The notes under the pieces were generated by a model, which had not been told where the DNA came from, did no database searches, and saw nothing but the letters and a program-made list of their open reading frames with translations. DNA of 30,765 nt, taken from positions 1-30,765 of IMG/VR virus record IMGVR_UViG_3300044845_001067. The stretch is one strand, 5' to 3'. Each line of letters opens with the position of its first letter. Positions within the stretch are counted from its first letter, which is position 1. Positions 126 to 24,700 of the stretch are shown in pieces. This DNA is from a virus. A program made the translations under genes and the position numbers.

Positions 126-440
126 ATGCTAACAAAGAAAGAGTATGGTCTTGAAATTGATAATCTAGAAGGAACCTTTGATGAAATAATCAAAAGACTT
201 CAACAGCTAAAGGAATGGTCTCAAACGCCAAGAGATCCCATTACCGATAAACCTGATCCAGATGGAATTAAATACATCGGCATAGGATATGGTGGTCCAT
301 CAGGACTCGGAACTTCTCTATACTACGAGCGAATTGAAACGGACGCAGAATATTCACAACGGATAGAAAGATTACGAAAAGTAAAAGCCAGGACTGAGGC
401 TAAACTTAAGAGATTATCTGAACAGATTGCCGATCAGTAA
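126..440 (+). CDS. Hypothetical 104-aa phage protein
   Basis: I do not recognise this family. The 104-residue protein has an acidic N-terminal third that looks helical, a middle glycine-rich stretch around residues 52-64 (YGGPSGLG) that should be a loop, and a charged C-terminal helix from about residue 72, rich in Arg, Lys and Glu, possibly a coiled coil. It has no cysteines, signal peptide or membrane segment. The ATG lies 23 bp after the first copy of the 43-bp repeat. It is the first gene of the plus-strand run and is followed by a 68-bp gap that holds the second repeat copy, so it may be a single-gene unit with its own promoter. Confidence 0.7.
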   Translation: MLTKKEYGLEIDNLEGTFDEIIKRLQQLKEWSQTPRDPITDKPDPDGIKYIGIGYGGPSGLGTSLYYERIETDAEYSQRIERLRKVKARTEAKLKRLSEQIADQ

Positions 441-441
441 A

Positions 442-484
442 CTGTCCACTCATTTTCCCATTATACAGAAATTGGTTCATAATA
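442..484 (+). repeat. 43-bp direct repeat, copy 2, upstream of the second gene
   Basis: This is the second copy of the block at 61..103, with 40 of 43 bases identical. It lies between the stop of the 104-aa gene and the start at 509. Its conservation in a noncoding gap, when the phage wastes very little space, argues for a regulatory role such as an early promoter or a binding site for a phage regulator. No clear sigma70 -35/-10 pair is shared by both copies. Confidence 0.75.
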
Positions 485-724: not shown

Positions 725-919
725 ATGACAAAAGCAGAATTGATTGAAGTCTTAAGAGAATTCCCCGATGTTATTATGGTAGTTGTAGGAGGTGGCTGTA
801 CTCCATGGGTTGACATAGAAATGGTAAAATTAAAACTCAATTCAAATCTCGGTGATAATACTTTAGGTCCACATGAAGTAGACGAAGATGGTGATACCGA
901 TGCAATTTACATTTATTGA
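725..919 (+). CDS. Small hypothetical protein, MTKAEL family, paralogue 2
   Basis: This 64-aa acidic protein pairs with the gene at 509..715 (same MTKAEL start and AIYI ending) and probably arose by tandem duplication. The middle has diverged: a glycine-rich stretch GGGCTPW (about residues 20-26) replaces the acidic loop of its neighbour. No known domain is visible. It ends 2 bp before the first LRV gene and so looks like part of the same operon. Confidence 0.7.
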   Translation: MTKAELIEVLREFPDVIMVVVGGGCTPWVDIEMVKLKLNSNLGDNTLGPHEVDEDGDTDAIYIY

Positions 920-921
920 TC

Positions 922-1206
922 ATGGCAATAAACTATTTTGTTCACTATGCCGGCGATAAAACGGGAAGAGGAATTTTGCCTGGTCCGCGAAACCTCGATG
1001 TAAATGGTCTTTTAGAATTAGCGTCAGAGGTTGCTCGCTGTAGAGTTGCATACATCCCCAACACTCCTCCAGAAACTCTAACAGTTCTAGCCCGAGATAA
1101 GATTTTTAGTGTTCGTCGGTGTGTTGAAAGAAACCCAAACGCAACCCGAGAAGTCATTCAAACGGTAAGAGCCTATGAGTTTTATAAGGAGCAATCAACA
1201 TTATGA
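922..1206 (+). CDS. LRV (leucine-rich repeat variant) protein, tandem gene 1
   Basis: This 94-aa protein has a unique N-terminal 40 residues and then degenerate copies of a 24-residue repeat of the form NPNTPPETLTxLARDxxxxVRxxV. That matches the leucine-rich-repeat-variant (LRV/HEAT-like) pattern, an alpha-solenoid unit used as a protein-binding scaffold. It ends with the cap NATREVIQTVRAYEFY that also closes the next three genes. I chose the ATG at 922; a TTG at 916 is also in frame but overlaps the previous gene. The stop overlaps the next start as ATGA, so translation is probably coupled. LRV proteins of Azotobacter carry an N-terminal Fe-S cluster, but no matching cysteine cluster is visible here. 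Confidence 0.75.
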   Translation: MAINYFVHYAGDKTGRGILPGPRNLDVNGLLELASEVARCRVAYIPNTPPETLTVLARDKIFSVRRCVERNPNATREVIQTVRAYEFYKEQSTL

Positions 1207-1430
1207 AACCTTCACCAGAAATCCTAACAATTCTTGCCCGAGATGAGAATTCTAGTGTTCGCTGGAATGTTGCACACAACCCCAACACACCACTAGAAAT
1301 CCTAACAATTCTTGCCCGAGATAAGGATGGGGATGTTCGCTGTAGAGTTGCATACAACCCGAATGCAACAAGAGAAGTCATTCAAACCGTAAGAGCCTAT
1401 GAGTTCTACCAACAACATCCAACATTATGA
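1203..1430 (+). CDS. LRV protein, tandem gene 2
   Basis: This 75-aa protein consists almost entirely of two full LRV-type repeats (PEILTILARDENSSVRWNV and a second copy) followed by the shared C-terminal cap ending in HPTL. It starts inside the stop of the previous gene (ATGA at 1203-1206) and ends the same way at 1427-1430, the arrangement expected for reinitiation by the same ribosome. The fold should be a short alpha-solenoid. A role as an adaptor or inhibitor binding a host protein is inference only. Confidence 0.75.
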   Translation: MKPSPEILTILARDENSSVRWNVAHNPNTPLEILTILARDKDGDVRCRVAYNPNATREVIQTVRAYEFYQQHPTL

Positions 1431-1453
1431 CTTCTTCACTAGAAGCTCTAACA
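1365..1453 (+). repeat. 89-bp perfect repeat spanning an LRV gene junction, copy 1
   Basis: These 89 bases are identical to 1667..1755. The block covers the cap of one LRV gene, the ATGA junction and the first codons of the next gene. Related but diverged junctions occur near 1141-1207 and 1889-1956. Perfect identity over the junction points to a recent duplication of a whole gene unit by homologous recombination, and would allow further gain or loss of LRV genes. Confidence 0.85.
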
Positions 1454-1732
1454 CTTCTTGCCCGAGCTGTGGATTGTCTTGTTCGCTATGGGGTTGCATA
1501 CAATCCTAACACTACACCAGAAACTCTAACGTTCCTTGCTCAAGATGAGGATTGGTGTGTTCGCTGTGGAGTTGCAAACAACCCCAACACACCCCCAGAA
1601 ACTTTAACAATTCTTGCCCGAGATGAGAGCTTTAATGTTCGCTGGAGAGTTGAAAGAAACCCAAACGCAACAAGAGAAGTCATTCAAACCGTAAGAGCCT
1701 ATGAGTTCTACCAACAACATCCAACATTATGA
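1427..1732 (+). CDS. LRV protein, tandem gene 3
   Basis: At 101 aa this is the longest of the four tandem LRV genes, with three full repeats and the common cap. Its first codons and its last 22 codons lie in the two copies of the 89-bp perfect repeat, so the gene is one complete duplicated unit. Variable positions concentrate in the four residues before VR (for example DCLV, DWCV, SFNV) and just after it, the surface loops of an LRV solenoid. The scaffold positions Leu, Ala-Arg-Asp and Asn-Pro-Asn are fixed. It is coupled to both neighbours by ATGA overlaps. Confidence 0.75.
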   Translation: MTSSLEALTLLARAVDCLVRYGVAYNPNTTPETLTFLAQDEDWCVRCGVANNPNTPPETLTILARDESFNVRWRVERNPNATREVIQTVRAYEFYQQHPTL

Positions 1733-1755
1733 CTTCTTCACTAGAAGCTCTAACA
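1667..1755 (+). repeat. 89-bp perfect repeat spanning an LRV gene junction, copy 2
   Basis: This is the second identical copy of 1365..1453, at the junction between tandem LRV genes 3 and 4. The two copies begin 302 bp apart, so recombination between them would delete or duplicate exactly one LRV gene and keep the reading frame and ATGA coupling. Confidence 0.85.
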
Positions 1756-1956
1756 ATTCTTGCTCGAGATAAGAATGTGTTTGTTCGCTGGGGGGTTGCG
1801 TGCAACCCCAACACTCCCCCAGAAACTCTAACGATTCTGGCTCGAGATAAGGATAGGGATGTTCGCCATATTGTTAAAAGAAATCCAAATGCAACAAGAG
1901 AAGTCATTCAAACCGTAAGAGCCTACGAGTTTTATAAGGAGCATCCAACATTATGA
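1729..1956 (+). CDS. LRV protein, tandem gene 4
   Basis: This 75-aa protein has the same build as tandem gene 2: two LRV-type repeats and the cap, here ending YKEHPTL as in tandem gene 1 (YKEQSTL) rather than YQQHPTL. It begins in an ATGA overlap with gene 3, and its own stop overlaps the following Trp-rich gene (1953-1956). The cap variant suggests the array grew by inserting units between an original first and last gene. Confidence 0.75.
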   Translation: MTSSLEALTILARDKNVFVRWGVACNPNTPPETLTILARDKDRDVRHIVKRNPNATREVIQTVRAYEFYKEHPTL

Positions 1957-2303
1957 CAGTTTCAAGACCTATTTTAGCAACAGATAAGACCAAACTGAAT
2001 TGGTGGAATTATTGGATTGAACATTGTTGGATGACAGGGTGGACATCCATGTATAATAATTTTCATACCTGGATGGATCTTGTATGGTTTAATGACAATC
2101 AAAAGAATTATACTCTTCTAGATGATGATGATCCATTTAAAGAATGCTATTTAACTTTCTGGTATAATTTGAATGAAGATGATACCTATCCTAAAGAATT
2201 TTTAGAGGATTTAATGGAAATGACCGCAAACATTAATCTGGACGACTGTGTTCCATTGGATGAAAATTTTTTTGATGATCTTGAGGACCTTTACAATGAT
2301 TAA
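1953..2303 (+). CDS. Hypothetical Trp-rich acidic protein
   Basis: This 116-aa protein is not recognised. The N-terminal half is unusually rich in tryptophan (seven Trp between residues 17 and 45, including NWWNYW and HCWMTGW). The C-terminal half is strongly acidic, with DDDD near residue 60 and many Asp/Glu at the end. There is no signal peptide, and the Trp-rich part is too polar for a membrane segment. Acidic, aromatic-rich small proteins are common among early phage inhibitors of host enzymes, but that is only a suggestion. Translation is coupled to the LRV array upstream and to the next gene (8-bp overlap). Confidence 0.65.
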   Translation: MTVSRPILATDKTKLNWWNYWIEHCWMTGWTSMYNNFHTWMDLVWFNDNQKNYTLLDDDDPFKECYLTFWYNLNEDDTYPKEFLEDLMEMTANINLDDCVPLDENFFDDLEDLYND

Positions 2304-2526: not shown

Positions 2527-2705
2527 ACATTAAAATTGAGTACAGATCTAAAACCGATTCTTATGAATGGGTAATGTATGATGGACCCGATGGTATTGAT
2601 GATTATTGCGGACGGGAGAATAGTCTCGGTCAGGTTTTTGAGAGAATTATTTACTACCGGACACTAATTGAAAGGAGTTATACGGAGGCACTTAACGATG
2701 AATGA
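2523..2705 (+). CDS. Hypothetical 60-aa protein, paralogue of the gene at 3081
   Basis: The start is the ATG of the ATGA overlap with the previous gene; an ATG 15 bp further upstream is in frame but less economical. The protein begins MNIKIEYRSKTDSYEW and is clearly homologous to the 61-aa product of 3081..3266. Shared blocks are MNI-[KE]-I-x-YR, a Tyr/Trp strand, GP-x-G-[IV]-D, and SLG-[QE]-VFERIIYY in the C-terminal helix. The predicted order is beta-hairpin then helix. Function is unknown. It overlaps the following Cys-rich gene by 8 bp. Confidence 0.65.
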   Translation: MNIKIEYRSKTDSYEWVMYDGPDGIDDYCGRENSLGQVFERIIYYRTLIERSYTEALNDE

Positions 2706-2913
2706 ACCACAAAGATGTCACAACTGCCTTTATTCGAGAACCTATGAAGTTGTGGATATTGTTTTAGAAAAGCTTGAGAGTGCATTTAAGACACAATCAA
2801 CAATAACAAAATGCCATTTACAGGGAAAGCCCGAAATAGTTAATTCTAAGTTAGATTGGTGCTATCAATGGAACCCGTCAGACCCTTGTTTTGGAGAATT
2901 AGATGAAAATTGA
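2698..2913 (+). CDS. Small Cys-rich protein, possible zinc binder
   Basis: The start is the ATG at 2698, which overlaps the previous stop. The 71-aa product has a CHNC motif near residues 7-10 and three further cysteines at about residues 39, 55 and 64. A four-Cys zinc site is therefore possible: CxxC plus two of the later ones. No larger family is recognised. It sits inside a run of duplicated small genes and overlaps the next short gene by 11 bp. Zinc binding is inferred from cysteine spacing only. Confidence 0.6.
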   Translation: MNEPQRCHNCLYSRTYEVVDIVLEKLESAFKTQSTITKCHLQGKPEIVNSKLDWCYQWNPSDPCFGELDEN

Positions 2914-3079
2914 TTTAGATGTTTTGGCACGGATTTATATCAAACTTATAGCGGAGCAGGTTTCTTATCGTGTTGTTCGCGAGTGGAATTCTGAAGAGCA
3001 GGAAACTTTATTTAATGAATACTTTGAAATAGCCAAGACCGCAGCCAAAGTTTATTCTGAAAATATTAAAGGAGAATGA
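2903..3079 (+). CDS. Hypothetical 58-aa helical protein
   Basis: This short gene encodes 58 residues beginning MKIDLDVLARIYIKL. It is predicted to be almost wholly alpha-helical, with a hydrophobic first helix and a charged second helix ending IKGE. The N-terminal MKIDL is shared with the protein at 3256, and the DNA of the two starts matches over about 15 bp (atgaaaattgattta). The two may therefore be diverged halves of a duplicated pair. The start overlaps the preceding gene; the stop is followed immediately by the next start, whose Shine-Dalgarno (AGGAG, 3070-3074) lies in this gene's last codons. Confidence 0.55.
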   Translation: MKIDLDVLARIYIKLIAEQVSYRVVREWNSEEQETLFNEYFEIAKTAAKVYSENIKGE

Positions 3080-3080
3080 A

Positions 3081-3266
3081 ATGAACATTGAAATATGGTA
3101 CAGACCCGAAAATGACCAGTATGTATGGTCATTAGATGTTGGCCCAGCCGGCGTGGATGTTTACGAGGGCGCAGAACATAGTCTAGGCGAGGTTTTTGAG
3201 AGAATTATTTACTATAAGACTGTGAATTCCATGAGTTATATGGAGGCAACCCACAATGAAAATTGA
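3081..3266 (+). CDS. Hypothetical 61-aa protein, paralogue of the gene at 2523
   Basis: This 61-aa product shares the MNI-x-I-x-YR start, the GPAGVD turn and the SLGEVFERIIYY helix with the protein of 2523..2705. The pair shows a duplicated gene block. It has a good Shine-Dalgarno (AGGAG) 6 bp before the ATG. The downstream gene begins within its last codons (11-bp overlap, 3256-3266). No function is known. Confidence 0.65.
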   Translation: MNIEIWYRPENDQYVWSLDVGPAGVDVYEGAEHSLGEVFERIIYYKTVNSMSYMEATHNEN

Positions 3267-8315: not shown

Positions 8316-8861
8316 ATGAACATGACTGAAATAATTCTACCAGAAATAACCGCCGAAGACCTTGAGGCACTTGAACGTCTCGCAGAAGAAAATCTAAAAA
8401 CTGAACAGAATATTAAGCTAGCCGAAAATTCAGAAACTTCACCGGAAATCTTGAAGACTCTTTATCAAGAAAAAGATTCATATCTCCGTAGTAGAGTTGC
8501 ACTCAATCCCAACACTCCACCAGAAACTCTAACAATTCTTGCCCGAGATGAGGATTTGAATGTTCGCTTGAATGTTGCACGCAATCCCAAAACTCCTCCA
8601 GAAACTATAACGTTTCTTTCTCTAGATGAGAGTGTAAATGTTCGTCATTGGGTTGCATGGGACACCAAAACTCCACCAGAAACTCTAACAATTCTTGCCC
8701 GAGATGAGAGTGCGGGTGTTCGTTGTGGAGTTGCATCCAATCCTAACACTCCACCAGAAACTTTAACGTTTCTTTCCCGAGATGAAGATCCTTCCGTCTC
8801 TTCTGTCGCCGAGGCAAATATAGACCGGAATCATGTAGATGAAATACGATCACCCTTTTGA
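8316..8861 (+). CDS. LRV protein with five repeats
   Basis: This 181-aa protein has an N-terminal Glu/Leu-rich helical region (about residues 1-45) and then five LRV-type repeats of 24 residues (NPNTPPETLTILARDEDxxVR), the last ones slightly degenerate (WDTKTPPETLTILARDES). It lacks the NATREVIQTVRAYEFY cap of the tandem genes and ends in a polar tail. It should fold as an alpha-solenoid used for protein binding. A second in-frame ATG lies at 8322. It has a late promoter box and overlaps the next gene by 23 bp. The family is recognised by its repeat; the target is unknown. Confidence 0.75.
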   Translation: MNMTEIILPEITAEDLEALERLAEENLKTEQNIKLAENSETSPEILKTLYQEKDSYLRSRVALNPNTPPETLTILARDEDLNVRLNVARNPKTPPETITFLSLDESVNVRHWVAWDTKTPPETLTILARDESAGVRCGVASNPNTPPETLTFLSRDEDPSVSSVAEANIDRNHVDEIRSPF

Positions 8862-9214: not shown

Positions 9215-9469
9215 TTATGGGTTATTAACGTCAACCATAATTTTAGCTTTCTTCGCCTCAACGATACTCTCCAACCATTCATCACTCATAGCCTCTAAAA
9301 CACATTCAGCCGACTCATAATAATCAACGTAGCCTTCATTTACAAGATAATTTAAGACGTGCTCACGCATATCAGTTTCTTTATCTTGACCCCCTAGATT
9401 ACCAGTAGATTTCATCTCGTAAATGGACGCATAAGATTCATACAAATTAGAAAGTTCTCTAATGTCCAT
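9215..9469 (-). CDS. Late virion-type protein with the shared C-terminal helical domain (84 aa)
   Basis: The product begins MDIRELSNLYESYASIYE, nearly the same opening (LYESY-x-S-[IV]-Y) as the 155-aa protein at 12788. It ends in a domain shared with two other minus-strand proteins here: YLVNEGYVDYYESAECVLEAMSDEWLESIVE, two helices with an NEG turn. I know this C-terminal pattern from many small proteins of T4-like cyanophages, where it is unassigned. It is expressed from its own late box (9491-9500). The Ile-x-Glu in SIYE could be a prohead protease site. A role in the head, core or packaged protein set is inference. Confidence 0.65.
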   Translation of the reverse strand: MDIRELSNLYESYASIYEMKSTGNLGGQDKETDMREHVLNYLVNEGYVDYYESAECVLEAMSDEWLESIVEAKKAKIMVDVNNP

Positions 9470-9490
9470 TTCACAAATTACTTACTAAGT

Positions 9491-9500
9491 CTATTTATCC
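9491..9500 (-). promoter_or_regulatory. Minus-strand late promoter (GGATAAATAG)
   Basis: Read on the minus strand this is GGATAAATAG, 21 bp upstream of the ATG at 9469. It lies in the 46-bp gap after the ART-like gene and would give the 84-aa gene independent late expression. Confidence 0.55.
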
Positions 9501-9515
9501 CGGTCTTAATTTATA

Positions 9516-9962
9516 CTATTTTCGTTTTGGTTGAGTTTTGGTTTTCCTCTGAAAAGCCTTTGGCAATAAATGATGAAATTCCTTTTCCGTTTTGGGCGCC
9601 CTAACAATCCCCGATGAATCTTTCACTCTTTTCTTTGTGGCATAATCTCTATCCATTGCAACTGAAAAGTGATCTTTTCCCCAAATATCAGTTCCTCTCT
9701 GTCCATCAGTTTTAACGGCTTTTGCCGGAACATTCGGCTTAATACTTTTAGTTGGAACCAAGAGTTCTAAAGTCTTCGGCTTTTCGCTATATCTTGCCCC
9801 AAATCCCGATGCAATTCCTCTTGATGTTGAAGCATAAACCTCTGGTGACTTAAATCCATGCTTTTTAATTTTCTCAGCAGATTCTGGAGATGTTCCGTGA
9901 TACAGCCTAGTAAAACGTAATTTTTTAGGTGCCTCGTTTATAAACTGATTAAAAGATTTCAT
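9516..9962 (-). CDS. Small ADP-ribosyltransferase-like protein with a capsid-targeting N-terminus
   Basis: The 148-aa protein starts MKSFNQFINE-A, matching the T4 internal-protein targeting peptide with an Ile-x-Glu gp21 cleavage site after residue 10. The mature part opens with TRLYHGTSPESAEKIKKHGF (His22-Gly-Thr), then VYASTSRGIASGFG (Ser-Thr-Ser near 45-47). These resemble the NAD-binding H-G-T and S-T-S blocks of PARP/2'-phosphotransferase-type ADP-ribosyltransferases. The third catalytic position is not certain; Glu126 or Glu128 near the C-terminus is a candidate. The tail is very basic (KRKTKTQPKRK). T4 Alt, a packaged and injected ADP-ribosyltransferase of 682 aa, is the functional parallel; this would be a much smaller analogue. 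Translation is coupled to the gene upstream (ATGA at 9962-9959). Confidence 0.6.
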   Translation of the reverse strand: MKSFNQFINEAPKKLRFTRLYHGTSPESAEKIKKHGFKSPEVYASTSRGIASGFGARYSEKPKTLELLVPTKSIKPNVPAKAVKTDGQRGTDIWGKDHFSVAMDRDYATKKRVKDSSGIVRAPKTEKEFHHLLPKAFQRKTKTQPKRK

Positions 9963-10243
9963 AGTCCCAACCTTTGTGCGGCTCTTTCCATTCTACTGGG
10001 AAGAGTTCTTTTTCTTGCTTCTTTTTTAATAAGCTCTGGATTCGCTCTTCTCTCTTGAGCATATTCAATGTCTCTCTGCCTTTGAGCCTCTCTTTCACGT
10101 TGGCGTGCTCGGGCTTCTTCTCTGCGGTCATTTTGAGCAGTTATTTTCTGAGCCGCACCTGGAATTTTTCTGCCTCTAGTTGTAGCCCTAGTGGCTGCAA
10201 TGGCTTCAGAAAGAAATTCTTCAAATGTCTTGTTTGGTTGCAT
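9959..10243 (-). CDS. Basic coiled-coil protein with a capsid-targeting N-terminus
   Basis: I chose the ATG at 10243 (MQPNKTFEEFLSEA) rather than a longer frame to 10333, because it restores the shared K-T-F-x-E-F-L-x-E-A motif and has a late box 11 bp upstream. The 94-aa protein is rich in Arg, Glu, Ala and Gln (EEARARQREREAQRQRDIEYAQERR) and should form a long helix or coiled coil. It is strongly basic and could bind DNA in the head or neutralise charge, as T4 internal proteins do. Cleavage after LSE would leave about 80 residues. It overlaps the ART-like gene by ATGA. Confidence 0.6.
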   Translation of the reverse strand: MQPNKTFEEFLSEAIAATRATTRGRKIPGAAQKITAQNDRREEARARQREREAQRQRDIEYAQERRANPELIKKEARKRTLPSRMERAAQRLGL

Positions 10244-10253
10244 CTTTTTTATT

Positions 10254-10637
10254 TTATTTATCTTTTGGTTGCCTGATATGTGTATCTCTTGTGGTAAAGT
10301 CTTTGTTTCTTCCTTTATTGGGCTTGAACCCAAAATTTTTATAAAATGTGTCCAACTTTTTCTTATAACCGGGGGCTGGGGCCTGATTTAAAGAGACTTT
10401 AGAGCCCTGTTTATCTGCTAATCTCGTTACTCCTTTCATAACTCTACCACCAACACCTTTGCCCCTCAAATGAGACGGCACAAATAAGTCGTGAACTCTT
10501 ATATGATCTTTATTTTGAGTTGCATATACGTTGACTCCCTTATAATTTGGTCTTCTTTCCCAGTTTTTACTGATAGTTTTTAGTGCATCGGGTTTGGGTT
10601 GATTTGCCTCAAACAAAAATTCTTCAAATGTTTTCAT
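10254..10637 (-). CDS. GNAT-family acetyltransferase with a capsid-targeting N-terminus
   Basis: The 127-aa protein begins MKTFEEFLFE-A, close to the T4 packaging signal MKTYQEFIAE, with Leu-x-Glu for prohead protease cleavage after residue 10. The remainder is a compact GNAT domain: strand IRVHDLFVPSHLRGKGVGGRVM with the acetyl-CoA pyrophosphate loop R58-G-K-G-V-G63, then SLNQAP, then the LDTFYKNFGF motif B near 95-104. It should move an acetyl group from acetyl-CoA to an amine on a protein or small molecule. If packaged, it would reach the host at injection. The target is unknown. It is coupled to the upstream gene by ATGA (10637-10634). Confidence 0.75.
   Translation of the reverse strand: MKTFEEFLFEANQPKPDALKTISKNWERRPNYKGVNVYATQNKDHIRVHDLFVPSHLRGKGVGGRVMKGVTRLADKQGSKVSLNQAPAPGYKKKLDTFYKNFGFKPNKGRNKDFTTRDTHIRQPKDK
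10255..10262 (-). promoter_or_regulatory. Minus-strand late promoter (GATAAATA) overlapping a stop codon
   Basis: On the minus strand GATAAATA ends 11 bp before the ATG at 10243 and overlaps the TAA stop of the acetyltransferase gene. It is the likely reason why the 10-bp gap between these two genes breaks the otherwise continuous ATGA chain. Confidence 0.5.
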
Positions 10638-11272
10638 TCTACTTTACCCATCATACGATTTGTAACGGGGCTCATTTTACTGGCATTAGGAAGTAGCTTT
10701 TTATATAACTTAGCCCTGGAATTTCTTCCGGCTTTTTCTGGACCGCCACTTTGAGTTTGACCGGGTTTTCCAATAACAACATCACCAGACTTTGCCCCGG
10801 CCTTTTTAATTTCTCTTGGAACATTTCCAACAGCCTTTTTGAGATTTTGAGTTCTCTTTTTGATATTCTCAAAATCGCCATGACCTCTTTCTAAATTTGG
10901 AACAATATCAGCAGTGAATACTGCTCCCTTTGGGTTTCTACGGTTCTTGGTTACTTGCTTTCTTAGTTGATTTGCCCTAAATGCTCTTTCCGAATTTTTA
11001 ACGACTACGTTTTTACCATTAATAGTATTAACTTTTGGTGTTTCTCCGGCTGCATAATGCGCGGGATTTTTATATTTTCTAATCTCTATTGAGACATCAT
11101 CTGGATCAGATGTGGTGTGAATGTGTTCATCACTTCCTCCTCTGATTTTGGCCCTAGTCCCCATTCTTCTCTTTAGAATTTTTGAAAGATTTTCACCTCT
11201 TTGTTGCCTTCTTTCTCTTGAACTACTCGCCCCGTGCTTGGCTTCATTGATGAATTCGTCAAAAGTTTTCAT
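10634..11272 (-). CDS. Basic 212-aa protein with a capsid-targeting N-terminus, unknown function
   Basis: It begins MKTFDEFINE-A, the same N-terminal signal with an Ile-x-Glu cleavage site. The 202-residue remainder is very rich in Arg and Lys, with a Ser/Arg-rich start (SSSRERRQQR). A middle block with HIHTTSDPDDVSIEIRKYKN looks like a folded strand pair, and the C-terminal half (GDVVIGKPGQTQSGG then NSRAKLYKKLLP) may be a second module. No catalytic family is recognised. By position and signal it belongs to the proposed set of packaged proteins. Both ends are coupled by ATGA (11272-11269 and 10637-10634). Confidence 0.65.
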   Translation of the reverse strand: MKTFDEFINEAKHGASSSRERRQQRGENLSKILKRRMGTRAKIRGGSDEHIHTTSDPDDVSIEIRKYKNPAHYAAGETPKVNTINGKNVVVKNSERAFRANQLRKQVTKNRRNPKGAVFTADIVPNLERGHGDFENIKKRTQNLKKAVGNVPREIKKAGAKSGDVVIGKPGQTQSGGPEKAGRNSRAKLYKKLLPNASKMSPVTNRMMGKVE

Positions 11273-11544
11273 TTAGAATTCCTAGCTACTCTTTCAATAA
11301 AACTCTCGCTCATAACATCAAGAATGACATTCAAAGAATCCTGAGAATCAACAAAGCCCTCATTGAACAAAATATCTGCAACGATTTCCTTGTATTCTTT
11401 CATTAGCTTATCGCGTTCGCTCTTAAATTCTCTTTCAGCCTCATCTGTTTGGGTTCTATTTGTCTTTCCGTGAGCTGGTGGCTTGCTCAATTTAGCGGAC
11501 TTCTTTGCAATGAGCTTCTTCAGTTCGGCAGTATCAATGGACAT
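11269..11544 (-). CDS. Late virion-type protein with the shared C-terminal helical domain (91 aa)
   Basis: This is the first gene of the minus-strand coupled run, with a late box 24 bp upstream. The N-terminal half is Lys-rich (IAKKSAKLSKPPAHGK) and helical. The C-terminal 35 residues (ADILFNEGFVDSQDSLNVILDVMSESFIERV) match the domain at the ends of the 84-aa and 155-aa proteins in order and spacing: NEG/DEG, a short acidic turn, a helix ending MSE, and a final aromatic helix. It lacks the LYESY opening. Function is unknown; a head or core role is inferred from company and late promoter. Confidence 0.65.
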   Translation of the reverse strand: MSIDTAELKKLIAKKSAKLSKPPAHGKTNRTQTDEAEREFKSERDKLMKEYKEIVADILFNEGFVDSQDSLNVILDVMSESFIERVARNSK

Positions 11545-15763: not shown

Positions 15764-18700
15764 ATGAAAGTTAAAATAAGCTCTATCGTTGAAAGCCAAA
15801 TTCCATCTTTTCTAAGAGAAGAATCGCCACTGTTGGTGGAATTTATACGCCAATATTTTATTTCCGGTGAATATGCAGGAGGACCCTTTGATTTAATTGC
15901 CAATATTGATCAATATATCAAATTAGAAAATTTAACAAACAATACACAATCTACAATTTTATCTGAAGATATTTCATTTACCGATACCGATATTTCAGTA
16001 ACATCAACCAGAGGATTTCCAGATTCTTATGGACTATTAAAGATTGATTCTGAAATTATTACTTACACATCAAAAACTGATACGACTTTCAATGATTGCA
16101 TCAGGGGATTTTGTGGTACATCAAATTATGATCTAGAATTTTCAACATCTGAGTCTTCCGGTCATTTAGAAAATACTGTAGTAGAAAATCTTAGTGTTCT
16201 TTTTCTTAATAGGTTCCTGGTTAAGCTAAAGAAACAATTGATTCCTGGATTTGAAGGTAGAGAATTTACCGATAATTTAAACCAGACCACGTTTATTGAA
16301 AAATCCAGAGATTTCTATTCAACAAAAGGAACCGATAGAGCCTTTGAAATTCTCTTCGGGGCTCTTTATGGAGAACCAGTACAAGTAGTAAAGCCAAGAG
16401 AATATCTTTTCACGCCATCCGATGCAGAATATAGAGTAACCAGAGAATTAGTTGTTGACCCAATTTTTGGAGATCCAACACTACTAGAAAATAGAACATT
16501 ATTTCAAGATAAAACTGAAAATTACCCAAAGGCCACCGGGACAATTAGTAAAGTAGAAAAAATAATTCGCGGGGACCGAACTTATTATATTATCAGTCTG
16601 GATTATGATTTTAACAATAATGTGAGCGAGTTTGGAGAATTTTCAATTCATCCCAAAACTCAACTAACAAGCTCGGCATCTATTGGGGCTAAAACCCTGG
16701 ATGTTGATTCAACTGTAGGGTTTCCGCAAACCGGCTCGTTGCTTTTGGGCGATAATTCGGTCATTACCTATACTTCAAAATCTACAAATCAATTTTTCGG
16801 TTGTTCGGGTATTTCTCTTATTCTTAATTCTGGAGATACAGTTGCAGTAAATGCCTTTGCATATGGTTATAGCGGCCAAAATACTGAAGATGTTGTTAGT
16901 GTTCGCGTAACGGGTGTTATTGGAGAATTTAAAGAAACCACAAGTGCCTATCACCTGAATGTTGGCGACACTATTCGGCCAAAATCTTTGGGGAAATTGA
17001 GCAGAGACATTCGCTCAAAAAATTGGCTATACAATATTCCAAATTGTTACAATCTAGAATCAATAAGATTATTAGATTCAGCCACAAGCCAGTATGAATT
17101 TAAAACAATTGACGATAACTTTCTTAATGTTGGAGATGTTATTGGGATATATTATAAAAATGGATCAGTTATTCAAACAACAATCTATTCAAAGATAAAC
17201 TTTAATACCTTTATAGTTCAAGGACAGGGGCAACTTATATTCTCAAATATTGATTATATTGAGAATCAATTAAAAAGGGCATCGGCTATAAATTTTCAAG
17301 ATATTAGTAATTATTCAGCAAATGTTCAAAACGTATATGTTGATTCTACTGAAAATTATTATGTTTCGGCGCCGTCCCTTCCCAGTTATTCTCAGTTGCC
17401 ACTGTTGGCAGATTCCAGAGGGATAATTTTAAATGGTTCTTTCGATGGCACAGTAATAAACTATACAGATCACGGATTCTATAGTGGCGATGTAGTGGTT
17501 TATGATTACACAACGAGCAATCTCGGTATTGCAAAAGGAATTTATTACGTCAAAAAGATCTCAAAAGATTCTTTATCCCTTGCAACAAGTAGGACCAACC
17601 TAAAGGCAGGAATTTTCGTTAATGTTCAGGGTATTGTAACAAATAATACTTTATCATACAATGAGTTTTCTGGTAAAACACTAAATCACCAAAAGCTCTT
17701 TAGAAAAATTTCTGAAGCAGTTCCAACCGTAAAAGTTGTTCCAACTCCTATTGGAAATACCGGCATTTTAAACAATGGAGTTGAGATTCTAAACTACAAA
17801 TCTCGGGATGCTGTTTTTTATGGCCCGATAGAATCTTTTGCAGTCATATCTCCGGGTTCCGACTATGACGTAATGAATCCTCCAGTAATTCAAATAACAG
17901 ATGAATCTGGAATTGGTGCAATAGCCAATTGTGAAGTATCGGGTTCTTTGAAAGAGATTAGACTCATAAATCCCGGTCTTAATTATAATTCAGAGCCTTC
18001 CATCACCATTTCTGGTGGTAATGGTAAAAACGCTCGGGCCAGAGCCGAGATTAGCCTTTTTGAACATTCAGCTAGCTTTCAATCTACTTCAATTGTAAAT
18101 AATGCCATAGGATTTAGTACATTTCATGGTTTTAATAATACTGAAAAAGTAATCTTTAAGCCAGATGGTGTCACTAGAGTTAGCGGCATTTCAACTGATT
18201 CTCAATACTTTGCTTTTGTTGAAAATACCCAAGAAATTAAACTACATAAGAGCTATACTGATGCACTTTCTGGAATTAATACAATTACATTAACTCCAAG
18301 CGGAATAGCAAACCATAGAATTGTTTCGGCAACACCGAAAACAAAAGTGTCATCTATTAATGTAGTTGATTCTGGAGAAGGTTACAAGAATCGTAGAGTT
18401 TCGGTAAACTCTGCGGGTATTAGCACAGAGACAAATATAATCAATAAAGATCAACATGGATTTAAAAGCGGCGAGCTTATTGTATATGAAGACTTTACCG
18501 GTGCTCCAATCGTAGGTATAACAACAAACCAAAGTTACTATGTTACGGCACTAAACGAAGATAGTTTCAAATTATCCGAAGTTGCGGCCACCACTCCCGA
18601 TTTTCTTTACCGAACCAACCAATTTATATCCATCACAAGCTCTGGTAACGGAACGCACTATTTCAATTACGAACCAATTACGGTAAGTATTACCGGAATT

Positions 18701-21700
18701 TCTGAAAATAGTCCACATTTTTCGGCGAAAATTCAACCAATATTCAGGGGAGAAATTACCGATGTTATGGTTGAAAATGGTGGACAAAAATATGGCCAAG
18801 AAGATATTTTAAACTTTAACCGCCAACCTGTTATTAAAATCAATAGTGGCGTTTCTGCTCAGTTGCAGGCAGTGGTAAACGATGGTAAAATAACACAAGT
18901 ATTAGTAATTAATTCGGGATCGGGTTATAATTCTCAACCTGATATTGAAATTGTTGGTAGTGGCAGTGGAGCCAGATTAACCCCTATCGTTGAAAATGGT
19001 GAATTAAAAGAAGTAAAGATTATCAATTCTGGATATGATTATGATTCCAGAAATACATATCTCACCGTAGTCCCAGCGGGTCATGGGGCTGAACTTAGAG
19101 CCAATATTAAAAGATGGACTATCAATAATATTGAAAGATTATTTCAATCCAATAAAATTGTAGATGATGATGGTATAATAACTACTGGCATAAATTCTAG
19201 TTATGAATTACAATATACTCACGGGTATGCCCCAAGAGAATTGAGAAAGATTCTTTCAGCCTCTAAATTTATCTCTGGTAATTTATCATATCAACCAGAT
19301 TTACAACTCATCAATGGCCGAGAAAGTATTTCAGATTCTCATTCTCCAATCCTCGGGTGGGCTTACGATGGAAACCCGATTTATGGGCCATATGGCTATG
19401 AGGCGCAAACCGGAGGAGCTATAAAAATTGTAGAAAGCTCCTATGAAATTACACTATCGAGCGAGCGCCCAAGTCTAACATTATACCCCCAAGGATTTTT
19501 TGTTGAGGATTATCAATTCAAAAATAGCGGAGACTTAGATGAACACAATGGTCGCTATTGTGTGACTCCCGAATTTCCTAACGGAACTTATGCTTATTTT
19601 GCAACAGTTTCAAACAATGGTTATGAAACATCTGGAGCATTTAACAATTACTTCAAACCGACATTTCCCTATTTTATCGGAAATACCTACCACTCAAAAG
19701 CCATAGAATTTAATTTCTCATATTCTTCAAATCAAGATGCAATTGATATAAATGATACTGGTTGGCTCCGAAATGTGGCACCCTTTTCGTTTAATTCCGA
19801 AAATAGTTTCTACAAATATCTCGCTCAACCCTTTGACGATTATGAACAAACAGCAACAATAACTAGCACTCTTTCTGGTTCTCTTGAAAGTGTTATAGTT
19901 TCTAGTAGTGGTGATAATTATAAAATTGGAGACAAATTAGTATTCAACAACGATAATAGCGGTGGTATAAATGCAACAGCCGAAGTTGCATCAATATCTG
20001 GCAAGCCTGTAACATCTATTAGCATTGCCTCAACATCTTATTATGGTGTTGAATTTACCCCCAATTCGGAGTATGGAATTATTGGGTTCTGCAACGAGCC
20101 GCATGTATTTAAAAATAATGACACTGTAAGCATTTCAAATCTATTCCACAATCAATCATATCTACAAAATAGTTTTAACGTTTCAGTTATACCACAAAAG
20201 TTTACACTTAATGCCAACATTGATGCTCCATTTTTTACTGGAAATATAACATATATCAATCTTTATGGTAATCTAAATTATCCTAATATTAGAGAAAATG
20301 ATGTCCTTCAAATAGAGGACGAAAAGCTAAAAGTATTAAACGTTGATACAAAATCGTCAAGATTATTAGTGGAGCGGCAATATGCTGGAACATTAGGAAC
20401 ATCTCACGCGGCCGGTTCGGAAATAGTAGAACTTCCCAGAAAATTCTTTATACCTGCGGGCTCTCATAAATTCAATAATTCCGCTTTTAATAAAGAGCTA
20501 TACTTTAATCCTTCAAAATCTGTAGGTGTAGGTATTGGAACTACGATAATTTTCTCCAACCCCGGAATTGGACCGACGAGTGTATTTGTCCCTACAAAAT
20601 CGATATACATCCCCGATCATGGCTTAAAAACAGGCGAAAAGTTAATCTATAGAAGTAATGGTGGATCAGCATTGGGTGGCGTCTTAAACGACGACACTGT
20701 AGTATATGCTGTATCCTATTCTGGCGATTTCGTTGGACTTTCAACCGAAAAGGTTGGAATAGGTTCTACTGGAAATTATGTCGGATATAATACAACGGCT
20801 GCTGCAAAAATTCTCTCTTTTAATACGAGTGGCTCCGGTGATAAGCATAGCGTTATAACCACATACGATTCAACCGTTGGACAGGTTAATAAAAATTTAG
20901 TAACAGTTTCCACCATTTTGCCACCCGATCTGTCTCCTGGTGATAAGATTACTGTATCAGTAATACCAGCCGAGGATGAAATTGTTAAAATTTCTTACAA
21001 TAAAGAAACACAAAGACTTCTAGTTAATCCAAGGACATTTACCCCAACAGATGTCGTCGGCAATTTTATTACCATAAAAAATCACGGTTATCATAATGGT
21101 AAAAAACTTATTTACACCTCAAGTTCACCTACAATTGGACTAGAAAATGATGGTATTTACTATTCAGTCGTAATCACTTCTGATAAAATTGGTCTCAGTA
21201 GATCATATTACGATGCAGTGATAGCCAATAAGGTTGTAGAATTAACCGGGACATCATTTGGGGTATTCTCTGAAATCAATCCCAGCATTAATATCTTAAA
21301 AGGCAATTCAGTAATATTTGATCTGTCCGATTCATCTCTTTCCGAATCTAATGGATTTGAAAGCATTTCATCTTTTGATTTTGATATTTTTACGGATGGA
21401 CAATTTTCAAATAAATTTTTTACCACCTATAGCGATACCAATTTTAACGTTATTAAAAATGGCAGAGTCGGTATAGATACCAATGCAAGAGTCACTCTAA
21501 GAAATGATTCTAAATTGCCCAATGAATTATATTACAATCTAAGCTCTAAGACCAATAAGATAATTTTTAACGATAAAGAAAACATCACAAATTTCAACAG
21601 AATTAATTTCGTTGAGAGTTCATATTCGGGAACATACCCAGTCAGTGGAATTGGTACAACAACTTTTAGTTATACTATAGCAAATATTCCCGAAAAACCT

Positions 21701-24700
21701 AACTACAATACAAACGTAAAATACACTACAAATTCTAGTAAAGCAACTGGACCTATTGATAAGATTGCCGTCACTTCTGGGGGAAGTGGATATAAGACAC
21801 TTCCGGGAATAAGCTCAGTTATTTCTGATAATGGTTCTGGTGCAATATTTGAGCTTATTAGTCGTTCAATCGGTAGAATAAATGTAGTAAATCTCGATGA
21901 TATTGGCTACGATTATCCTGCAGATTTATCATTAACACCCGTAACTCAAACTCCAATAGTTCTTAAAGTCGTACCTCAAACCGCGCTTAAAACAGTTGGA
22001 ATTTCATCTCAGGGTAGAAACTATGTCTTTGCCCCAAATCTAGTTCTACTGGACGGCTTAACATTGGAGCAAATCTTAGATGTAGACTTAAGATATACAC
22101 TAGGAGATAGTGAAGTAACGATAGCCAAAAATAGTAAAGGAATTAATAACGTCACACCTATCATTGTTCCAACTAATAACTCAAATGGAGTTCAAATAAA
22201 TTCAATTACCTACAATTCTACAACAAAAGATGTAACGGTATTTCTGGCCCAAGGTTATAGCAACCTTTCGGATTTCCCCTTCGTGGTGGGCGACAAAGTA
22301 TTAATTGAAAATGTCTCAATTTATCCTGACCCGCAAGCCAAGGGTTATAACTCATCATCTTACGATTATACCAGATTTCTTATTAAGCAGGTTACTCCAA
22401 ATATTGGAGGTTCTAATGGAAGTATAATCTATAACATTGCAGACAAATTATATGACGATGAATATCCTGGAATTTTTAATTTAGATGTACTATCCGGCAC
22501 AGTAGTTCCAGAAAAATACTTTCCAAAATTTACAATTGACTTGACTAAAAATTCGTTCTTAAGAGATGAAATTGTCACATCTGATACTTTAAAAGGGTCT
22601 GTTCAGTTTTGGAATGAACAGAATGAACTTCTAACAATATCAACCCCCGATGAAATCATTCCAGGAGATGTAATTTTAGGAAAAGACTCACTCTCACGAG
22701 GAATTGTTGGTAAAGTTTATGGATTCCAATCAAATTATATAATCAACTCTTCATCTATAGTTAAAAAGGGTTGGAATACAGAAAAGGGGTTCTTTGATAA
22801 TGAATTCCAGAGAATACAAGACAGTAATTATTATCAGGCATTTTCTTATTCCCTGAAATCTAAAATTGATTATGAAACCTGGGACAACCCCGTCAGTAGT
22901 TTGGCTCACATTTCCGGTTTCAAAAAATTCGGCGATTTTATCGTTGAATCTGAAGTATTATCTTCCCAAATTTCAAATGGTGTTGAATCCTTATCAGATG
23001 TAAACATACTTAAAATTTCAGAAGTAGACCTAAATGCCCATGACGACTACGACTTAGCCACTGAAAATAACTATCAAATTGGTTCAAATCTTGCTTCTAA
23101 TCAAGTTTATTTTACCAACAGAATTTTACAGGATTATTTGCTAGTAGAAGGTAATAGGGTTCTAGTGGTTGATGACATCAGCCCAAAATTTGATGGAATT
23201 ACTCGCCAGTTTGACTTAACCAGCAACACCCGAAACGCCTTCTTGAGGAGTTTTGATGGAAGCTCTCAAGCTATTGTTGATATTCAGAATAATTTCCTAA
23301 AATTACCAAATCACTATTTCACTAACGGGGAAAAAGTTTCTTATACACACGGAGGCAGCCCCATTGGAATACAAACCACAAATATAAGTGGAATAGGTCT
23401 AACCAGCAAATTACCCCAAACATTATATGTCATAAAATATAGCGAATCTGAGATTGGTTTTGCCGATACCGCAGAAAATGCACTCAAAGAAAAGGTAACG
23501 CCAATCATTCTATCTACTGTTGGAATCGGTAGTACACATATACTGAAATCTACAAATCAAAATACCAAGGCAATTATTTCTTTGGGTGGAATTATTCAAT
23601 CCCCGATTGTAGCAACAGCAACCTCAACTAGGACCACATCTTATGTTGGAATTGGTTCCACTTCAATTTCTCTTTTGAGCAATAGAGATTTCGCCAGTGG
23701 GGATTATGCCAAAATTAATGATGAAATCGTAAAAGTTATTTCTGTTGGTATCGCATCAACCAATATCATAGCAATTAACAGATCCTGGGCTGGAACTGGA
23801 ATTTCTACACATGCAATAAACTCTGTAGTTTATAAGTTACAGGGAGATTACAATATTGTTGATAGCACTATACATTTTGTAGATCCACCGAAAGGACCAT
23901 CGCCAATTGGAACAGTTGGGGGTTCTCCTGAAAATGTTGATTTTGTTGGTATAACTTCAACTCTAAGTTTTAATGGTAGAATTTTTACGCGCAATGGTGT
24001 TAAAAATACACCAAATGATGCTTATTATAATAATTTTATTCTGGATGATATTTCCAGTGGTTTCAATGGAATTTCATCAACCTTTACTTTAAAAAGTAAT
24101 TCTCAAAATATCACGGGAATTGCGACCAATAATGGAACCATACTACTCAATGAGGTTTTCCAGGCACCATCAGAATTAACCGGATTCAACCGGGCATATA
24201 ACAGTTACACCATTTCACAAACCGCCGGAATCTCTTCTATAAGGTTCCTAGGAGCCCCTGCAACACAAACGAATGATGTAAATGGGTCAGGGCTACCCGT
24301 AGGAGGAGTAATTGTCTCCATAGGCTTTACGCCGGGTTTCGGGTTTCAACCATTAGTTTCCGCAGGCGGCACAGCCAACGTTTCAATGGCCGGCACAATT
24401 ACATCTATAACCGTAAATAATGCAGGTTCCGGCTATAGATCAGGTCTACAAACTGTAAATGTAAGTGCATATTCTCCAACCGCTGGACTATCAACTTTTC
24501 AGAATATCGGTATAGCCTCCATTTTAAATGGCAGAGTGGTTTCAGTCAATTTAACTAACCCAGGTGTTGGTTATACTTTTACGAATCCCCCAACCATAAC
24601 ATTTGATGCACCACTTACATATTCAAATATACCACTATTGTCTTCTGGAATTGGAACGGGCGCCAGGGCTAATCTAACAGTGGGGATTAATTCCAGTGTA

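Follow-up and report, generated by a model that had tools for sequence, protein, structure and literature searches.

Results

Five LRV genes in a cyanophage genome fragment

Four complete open reading frames (ORFs) stand side by side on the plus strand at positions 922 to 1956 of the window, by which we mean the whole stretch of DNA analyzed (30,765 bases; virus record IMGVR_UViG_3300044845_001067, positions 1 to 30,765). Their products carry 2, 2, 3, and 2 helix-B units, respectively, and all end in a common C-terminal cap helix, NPNATREVIQTVRAYEFY. The first-pass annotation of this DNA, which had described four neighboring LRV genes with two to three repeats each and one cap, was right on both points; it had overlooked a fifth LRV gene at 8316 to 8861. 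The genes and the features around them are as follows.

58-103 and 439-484, plus strand: duplicated 46-base intergenic direct repeat with the sigma70-like pair TTCCCA-17-CATAAT, a candidate promoter.
725-919, plus strand: small MTKAEL-type gene directly upstream of the array, with a paralogue at 509-715.
922-1206, plus strand: LRV gene 1 (g1), 94 aa; an unrelated N terminus, two helix-B units, and the cap.
1203-1430, plus strand: LRV gene 2 (g2), 75 aa; two repeats and the cap.
1427-1732, plus strand: LRV gene 3 (g3), 101 aa; three repeats and the cap; the protein used for the AlphaFold model.
1729-1956, plus strand: LRV gene 4 (g4), 75 aa; two repeats and the cap.
1953-2303, plus strand: non-LRV gene (PHROG 31449, a family with no assigned function), kept in the relatives G001, G003, and L054; it serves as the right-hand anchor of the locus in relatives.
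8316-8861, plus strand: fifth LRV gene (8.3-kb gene), 181 aa; about five repeats and a different C terminus.

Against the Pfam LRV model PF01816 (curated cutoff, 21.6 bits), g2, g3, g4, and the 8.3-kb gene scored 38.8, 51.2, 35.0, and 93.8 bits, respectively. The score of g1 was only 15.9 bits, below the cutoff, because its first ~33 residues are not LRV sequence; g1 belongs to the family by its cap and position alone, and it matches g3 over 1024-1203 (E value, 4e-25). Six places in the window match g3, itself included (E values, 2.4e-69 to 3e-19), and a protein scan found relatives at 20 viral loci, to which later scans added further loci. Thus, the LRV array is not a product of chance. Neither PHROG nor PADLOC gave a match for the LRV proteins of the window; PADLOC consists mostly of defense proteins, and its silence says little about counterdefense.

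The genes from 13468 on encode baseplate proteins that match those of T4-like Synechococcus phages, such as B23 and S-SM2, and psbA is also present. On this gene content, the window, which comes from a freshwater virus of cyanobacteria, is a fragment of a T4-like cyanomyovirus. The place of gp7 (baseplate wedge protein) is taken by a single, unusually long ORF of 3749 aa (15764-27013). On the minus strand, 9215-11544 holds a cluster of small ORFs with MKxFxxFxxEA starts (9516-9962, 10254-10637, and 10634-11272). We take these starts to resemble the capsid-targeting start of T4 internal proteins, and the products are perhaps injected phage proteins. One ORF of the cluster has a GNAT domain that lies barely above the Pfam cutoff, and one has an ADP-ribosyltransferase-like YHGT motif without a Pfam match.

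Gene junctions and the upstream element

Every junction of the array had been described as an ATGA. This is true of the three internal junctions (1203-1206, 1427-1430, and 1729-1732) and of the exit into the non-LRV gene (1953-1956). The entry is different, with a TGA at 917-919 and an ATG at 922. Among the relatives, the same −4 overlap occurs at 30 of 52 distinct LRV-LRV tandem junctions. Since three non-LRV junctions in the window (2523, 3555, and 7703) are also −4 overlaps, ATGA is ordinary here and common elsewhere in the contig, and we rejected it as a special signature of the array.

An AAGGAG, encoded by the Lys-Glu of the cap, lies 11 bases 5' of the starts of g2 and of the gene at 1953. 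The starts of g3 and g4 have no Shine-Dalgarno sequence, so translational reinitiation at ATGA is likely for both; the array genes are probably carried on one transcript. Copies of the 46-base element that are at least 95.7% identical, with the exact core conserved, lie upstream of the array in relatives. We call this element only a candidate promoter because the whole scan found no more sites than shuffled sequences did.

Predicted fold and a single variable face

The AlphaFold model of g3, built from 27 family rows, has a mean pLDDT of 94.7 and two helices per repeat (17-25, 31-37, 43-51, 57-63, and 69-77), with unit positions 10 to 18 in the second helix. Proteins of the g1-to-g4 type are predicted on this model to be short two-helix alpha-solenoids. 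The top Foldseek match was 1LRV (E value, 5e-3; Z, 8.3), which is also the best PDB sequence match. The nearest PDB folds were 1LRV and artificial alphaRep binders, with Z values of up to 11.4; helical repeats reach a Z of ~11 easily, and so the fold match alone says little.

The 1LRV protein, from Azotobacter vinelandii, is one longer chain that carries a four-cysteine iron-sulfur module at its N terminus. The window proteins share its LRV repeat model, which is over the cutoff in four of the five genes, but they are short, stand-alone, and present in many copies, and they have a hypervariable face. They contain one to three scattered Cys residues each, none of them clustered N-terminally, and the four-cysteine module is absent.

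Each repeat has 26 residues, and we analyzed 22 aligned codons per repeat. Positions 10, 11, 14, 15, and 18, and partly 9, are hypervariable; the other codons are nearly fixed, often even in the codon used. Positions 10, 11, 14, 15, and 18 form one face of helix B. Therefore, the distinction drawn earlier between a fixed scaffold and a few varying positions holds, while the placing of the varying positions in loops does not.

This face has a counterpart in protein engineering. AlphaRep libraries vary positions 18, 19, 22, 23, and 26 (and 30) of a 31-residue repeat, and alphaRep proteins bind their partners by the concave face that carries the variable positions (PMC3754942). Phage positions 10, 11, 14, 15, and 18 fall in the alphaRep register 18, 19, 22, 23, and 26. 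Both repeats are two-helix and HEAT-like, vary at the same five helix-2 positions, and share the DEDxxVRxxAAx motif (LIKALKDEDxxVRxxAAx in alphaRep and LTILARDEDxxVRxxVAx in the phage). They differ in that alphaRep is man-made, has 31 residues, and is varied at position 30 too, whereas the phage repeats are natural, have 26 residues, and belong to the LRV family. By analogy, we tentatively assign the variable helix-B face of the phage proteins to the concave side.

In TALE and Pumilio repeats, too, a handful of residues in each repeat confers specificity on a scaffold that is otherwise fixed, and the LRV proteins could be nucleic-acid readers of this type, with variable residues that specify bases. 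However, their net charge is near zero or negative (+3, 0, −3, and +3 for g1 to g4 and −15 for the 8.3-kb gene), and Trp, Tyr, Arg, Gly, Ser, and Cys are abundant on the face, which shows no small set of recurring pairs, as in protein binders. We judge nucleic-acid reading to be highly improbable and regard the face as a putative protein-binding surface.

Replacement changes accumulate on the variable face

Two cap families recur among the relatives: cap A, TREVIQTVRAYEFY, and cap B, TPxYIKKYLKIQ. The cap A set comprises 147 distinct units from 20 contig pieces, and the cap B set comprises 195 units. In cap A, the variable-face pN was 0.552 and the scaffold pS was 0.196. The ratio of variable-face dN to scaffold dS (Jukes-Cantor; bootstrap over contig pieces) was 4.40 (3.81 to 5.45) for cap A and 2.19 (1.86 to 3.02) for cap B, where the variable class was picked after inspection of the data, which favors a high ratio, and consists of the same six positions in both families. 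The scaffold N/S was 0.40 in cap A and 0.24 in cap B; the core genes of the window and its relative G003 gave 0.08 to 0.15. These N/S values are pairwise counts, not a likelihood test, and are complicated by recombination. The contrast between face and scaffold is made within the codons of the same units and does not need a tree; recombination can mislead tree-based tests of selection, as has likewise been noted in work on fungal NLRs (PMC4986451). Thus, the search for selection at the varying positions, which had been proposed for loops, did find an excess of replacements, located on helix B. The changes on the face are apparently kept by diversifying (positive) selection.

Single codons give the same picture. 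Position 14 is encoded by TGG (Trp) 45 times, TGT (Cys) 36 times, and TAT (Tyr) 31 times, and by the synonymous TGC only 4 times, so that replacement changes build up there while silent ones hardly do. In the scaffold, Arg13 is CGC in 129 of the 147 cap A units, and CGC makes up 9% of the Arg codons of the window; Asn19 is AAC in 115 of the 147 units, compared with 23% in the window. Both codons are rare in the window, which rules out that codon bias froze the scaffold and means that the repeats either share a recent common ancestor or have been homogenized.

Apart from this, almost all units, whatever their family, encode Val12 by GTT (in cap B, 178 GTT and 2 GTC), while Val16 of the same cap B units varies (127 GTA, 50 GTT, and 6 GTG). 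Arg13 is nearly always CGC or CGT in all contigs. This apparent constraint at the DNA level falls on codons 12 and 13, in the midst of the variable codons.

Variation so sharply confined to a few codons could be made by targeted hypermutation from a diversity-generating retroelement (DGR), and one DGR is present in the relative G014. However, 18 of the 19 contigs, which are fragmentary, have no reverse transcriptase; the template in G014 (L041:1-117) finds its match in a C-type-lectin-like ORF rather than in the LRV genes; and T-to-G replacements (TGT to TGG) are frequent, although adenines are the bases that DGRs mutate. On these grounds we rejected a DGR as the maker of the LRV variation and give the idea almost no credence. 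The G014 element itself (L041:1-2561) consists of a reverse transcriptase (125-1156), a template repeat (1-117), and a variable repeat (2434-2550; 88.9% identical) that lies inside the C-type-lectin-like ORF; it has no action on LRV genes.

LRV proteins from cyanobacterial plasmids are up to ~51 to 59% identical, over parts, to a phage LRV protein, which favors the idea that the phage proteins are not free binders but decoys or mimics, each modeled on a host LRV protein whose partner it competes for. A mimic should keep its binding face constant, yet the face is the most variable part, and we consider such decoys unlikely.

Turnover of the locus between close relatives

We compared related arrays for copy number, a check proposed in the first-pass annotation, and found 4, 2, or 1 intact LRV genes at this locus in close relatives. 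G003, whose gp25, gp6, and psbA proteins are 98.5 to 99.4% identical to those of the window, has two LRV genes rather than four, and G001 has one, joined at its start to the MTKAEL gene that precedes it. Three genes near the array in L067 (293, 148, and 155 codons) do not differ from the window by a single nucleotide, yet the array is different. Its last gene continues into the 3' part of the 8.3-kb LRV gene, and window positions 1957 to ~8436, psbA included, are missing. This deletion is probably the derived state, because G003, G001, and L054 all keep the intervening genes. The part of L067 derived from the 8.3-kb gene has 64.5% amino acid identity and a pS of 0.30, compared with a pS of 0 in the nearby genes; thus, the block was replaced by recombination, and point mutation in place is ruled out as the sole source of divergence. 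L071 and L076, which come from two samples, are identical over 1767 bases save for one whole 78-bp repeat. Taken together, the differences in G003, G001, L067, and the L071/L076 pair point to recombination between repeats and to the import of diverged repeat blocks. A member in L067 has only one repeat and 49 aa, and very small members of this kind may be unable to fold alone.

The main caveat for these strain differences is that the contigs are metagenomic and that repeats are prone to assembly error; intact reading frames speak against such error without excluding it. We also looked in the relatives for a single decayed or frameshifted long gene, which had been named as the observation that would count against a functional array. 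None was seen: the arrays were intact, and no stop lay within any repeat match among the matches listed.

The ease with which copy and repeat numbers change, together with recombination among other small paralogues of the region, would also suit a repeat family, neutral or selfish, whose expansion is a by-product of repeat recombination and serves no binding. In that case, purifying selection on the scaffold (N/S, 0.24 to 0.40) and an excess of replacements on the face would not be expected; in addition, the frames stay open and the indels are whole repeats. We find this explanation very unlikely.

Elsewhere in the region, the window contains two pairs of small paralogues (2523-2705 with 3081-3266 and 509-715 with 725-919), and G003 is without ~2702-3079, between the members of the first pair, as if they had recombined. 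In L001 (7587-9518), the psbA of G001 is matched in three separated pieces, as if introns or insertions interrupt it.

LRV genes beyond the array

The relatives, which are freshwater phage contigs, carry many dispersed LRV genes beyond the array alone. Matches to the PF01816 repeat numbered 31 in G009 (37.7 kb), 36 in G012 (45.9 kb), 61 in G014 (100 kb), 71 in G017 (125 kb), and 75 in G019 (179.5 kb). With the repeat model that we built, G014, G017, and G019 have 23, 28, and 24 LRV ORFs, respectively, counts that are approximate since a few overlapping or one-repeat ORFs are included; the 24 ORFs of G019 contain 122 repeats. The gp25 and gp6 proteins of G017 and G019 are ~58 to 60% identical to those of the window, which indicates that these two are T4-like cyanophages also.

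Isolated phages gave no DNA match, and at the protein level only Moorella phage MTATph1 was found, with a distant relative. In cellular genome contigs, a scan with narrow peptide patterns returned distant relatives only. The LRV proteins of uncultured Caudovirales and of MTATph1 have the same repeat and fold and are recorded as annotations or hypothetical proteins; phage LRV repeats as such are already annotated in databases.

Discussion

We think it probable that the array is a repertoire of small protein binders of the alpha-solenoid type, which recombines and is under positive selection. In the mechanism that we propose, the array would encode several short alpha-solenoid proteins of 26-residue LRV repeats, in each of which helix A and the turns would form the fixed scaffold and five helix-B residues the hypervariable face. 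With a face that differs from protein to protein, each would show a different surface, as in the artificial alphaRep libraries. Homologous recombination between repeats would add, remove, fuse, and swap repeats and whole genes, inside single genomes as well as from phage to phage, and diversifying selection would retain changes on the variable face. The earlier idea of a set of binders thus gains strong, though indirect, support from hypervariability on one face, the excess of replacement over synonymous changes, the alphaRep-like fold and register, and the turnover of copy number; it loses the loop positions and ATGA as a special feature.

Poxviruses have gene accordions and ankyrin-repeat repertoires, and they share with these phages a tandem change in copy number and families of viral repeat proteins; the fold, the host, and the size are different. 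Fungal immune receptors, too, are known to have conserved repeats in which one face is under selection. Repeats of fungal NLRs show high internal conservation (defined there by a threshold of 85% or more repeat-to-repeat identity over 100 aa), shuffling, positive selection at binding-face positions, and polymorphism in number (PMC4986451). The phage repeats are likewise near identical, shuffled, and polymorphic in number, with selection confined to face positions (by pairwise counts here and by likelihood in PMC4986451). In the fungi, these are WD, ANK, and TPR repeats at the C terminus of immune receptors, whereas the phage proteins stand alone with no effector domain. In the papers that we searched, we found no description of a phage LRV repertoire, of its selection or turnover, or of any phage-borne, stand-alone, recombining repertoire like this one.

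The signature of an arms race makes host or defense proteins the natural guess for the targets, and we conjecture that the targets are fast-evolving host proteins, defense proteins among them. A narrower version of the binder repertoire is that the LRV proteins are counterdefense inhibitors, each of which binds a host defense protein, so that the repertoire tracks the diversity of host defenses. The pattern of selection and turnover is that of an arms race, and LRV does occur in defense neighborhoods: on the Synechocystis 6803 plasmid pSYSA (L163:5870-9662), a CRISPR I-D locus and a GmrSD gene flank a gene whose 638-aa LRV product has repeats that closely resemble one another. However, the LRV proteins had no match in PADLOC, mostly a collection of defense proteins, and the other plasmid LRV genes that we inspected show no clear defense pattern. 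With pSYSA as the only such case, counterdefense stays a conjecture, possible but on the doubtful side.

Returning to the broader reading of a binder repertoire, we put forward, tentatively and as a real possibility, that cyanophages of fresh water maintain, across their genomes, a rapidly recombining repertoire of natural alphaRep-like binders, up to two dozen or more in number, that neutralize a shifting set of proteins from hosts or competitors. The arms-race idea is directly testable by pull-down. If such a binder repertoire exists, each variant would be a ready probe for a host target, perhaps a cyanobacterial defense protein, and nature would offer in these repeats an alphabet from which intracellular binders can be drawn. 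Repeat-driven recombination would be seen to reshape a psbA-carrying cyanophage region, and some phages would own a combinatorial repertoire of binders that evolved on the helix register that engineers chose for alphaRep.
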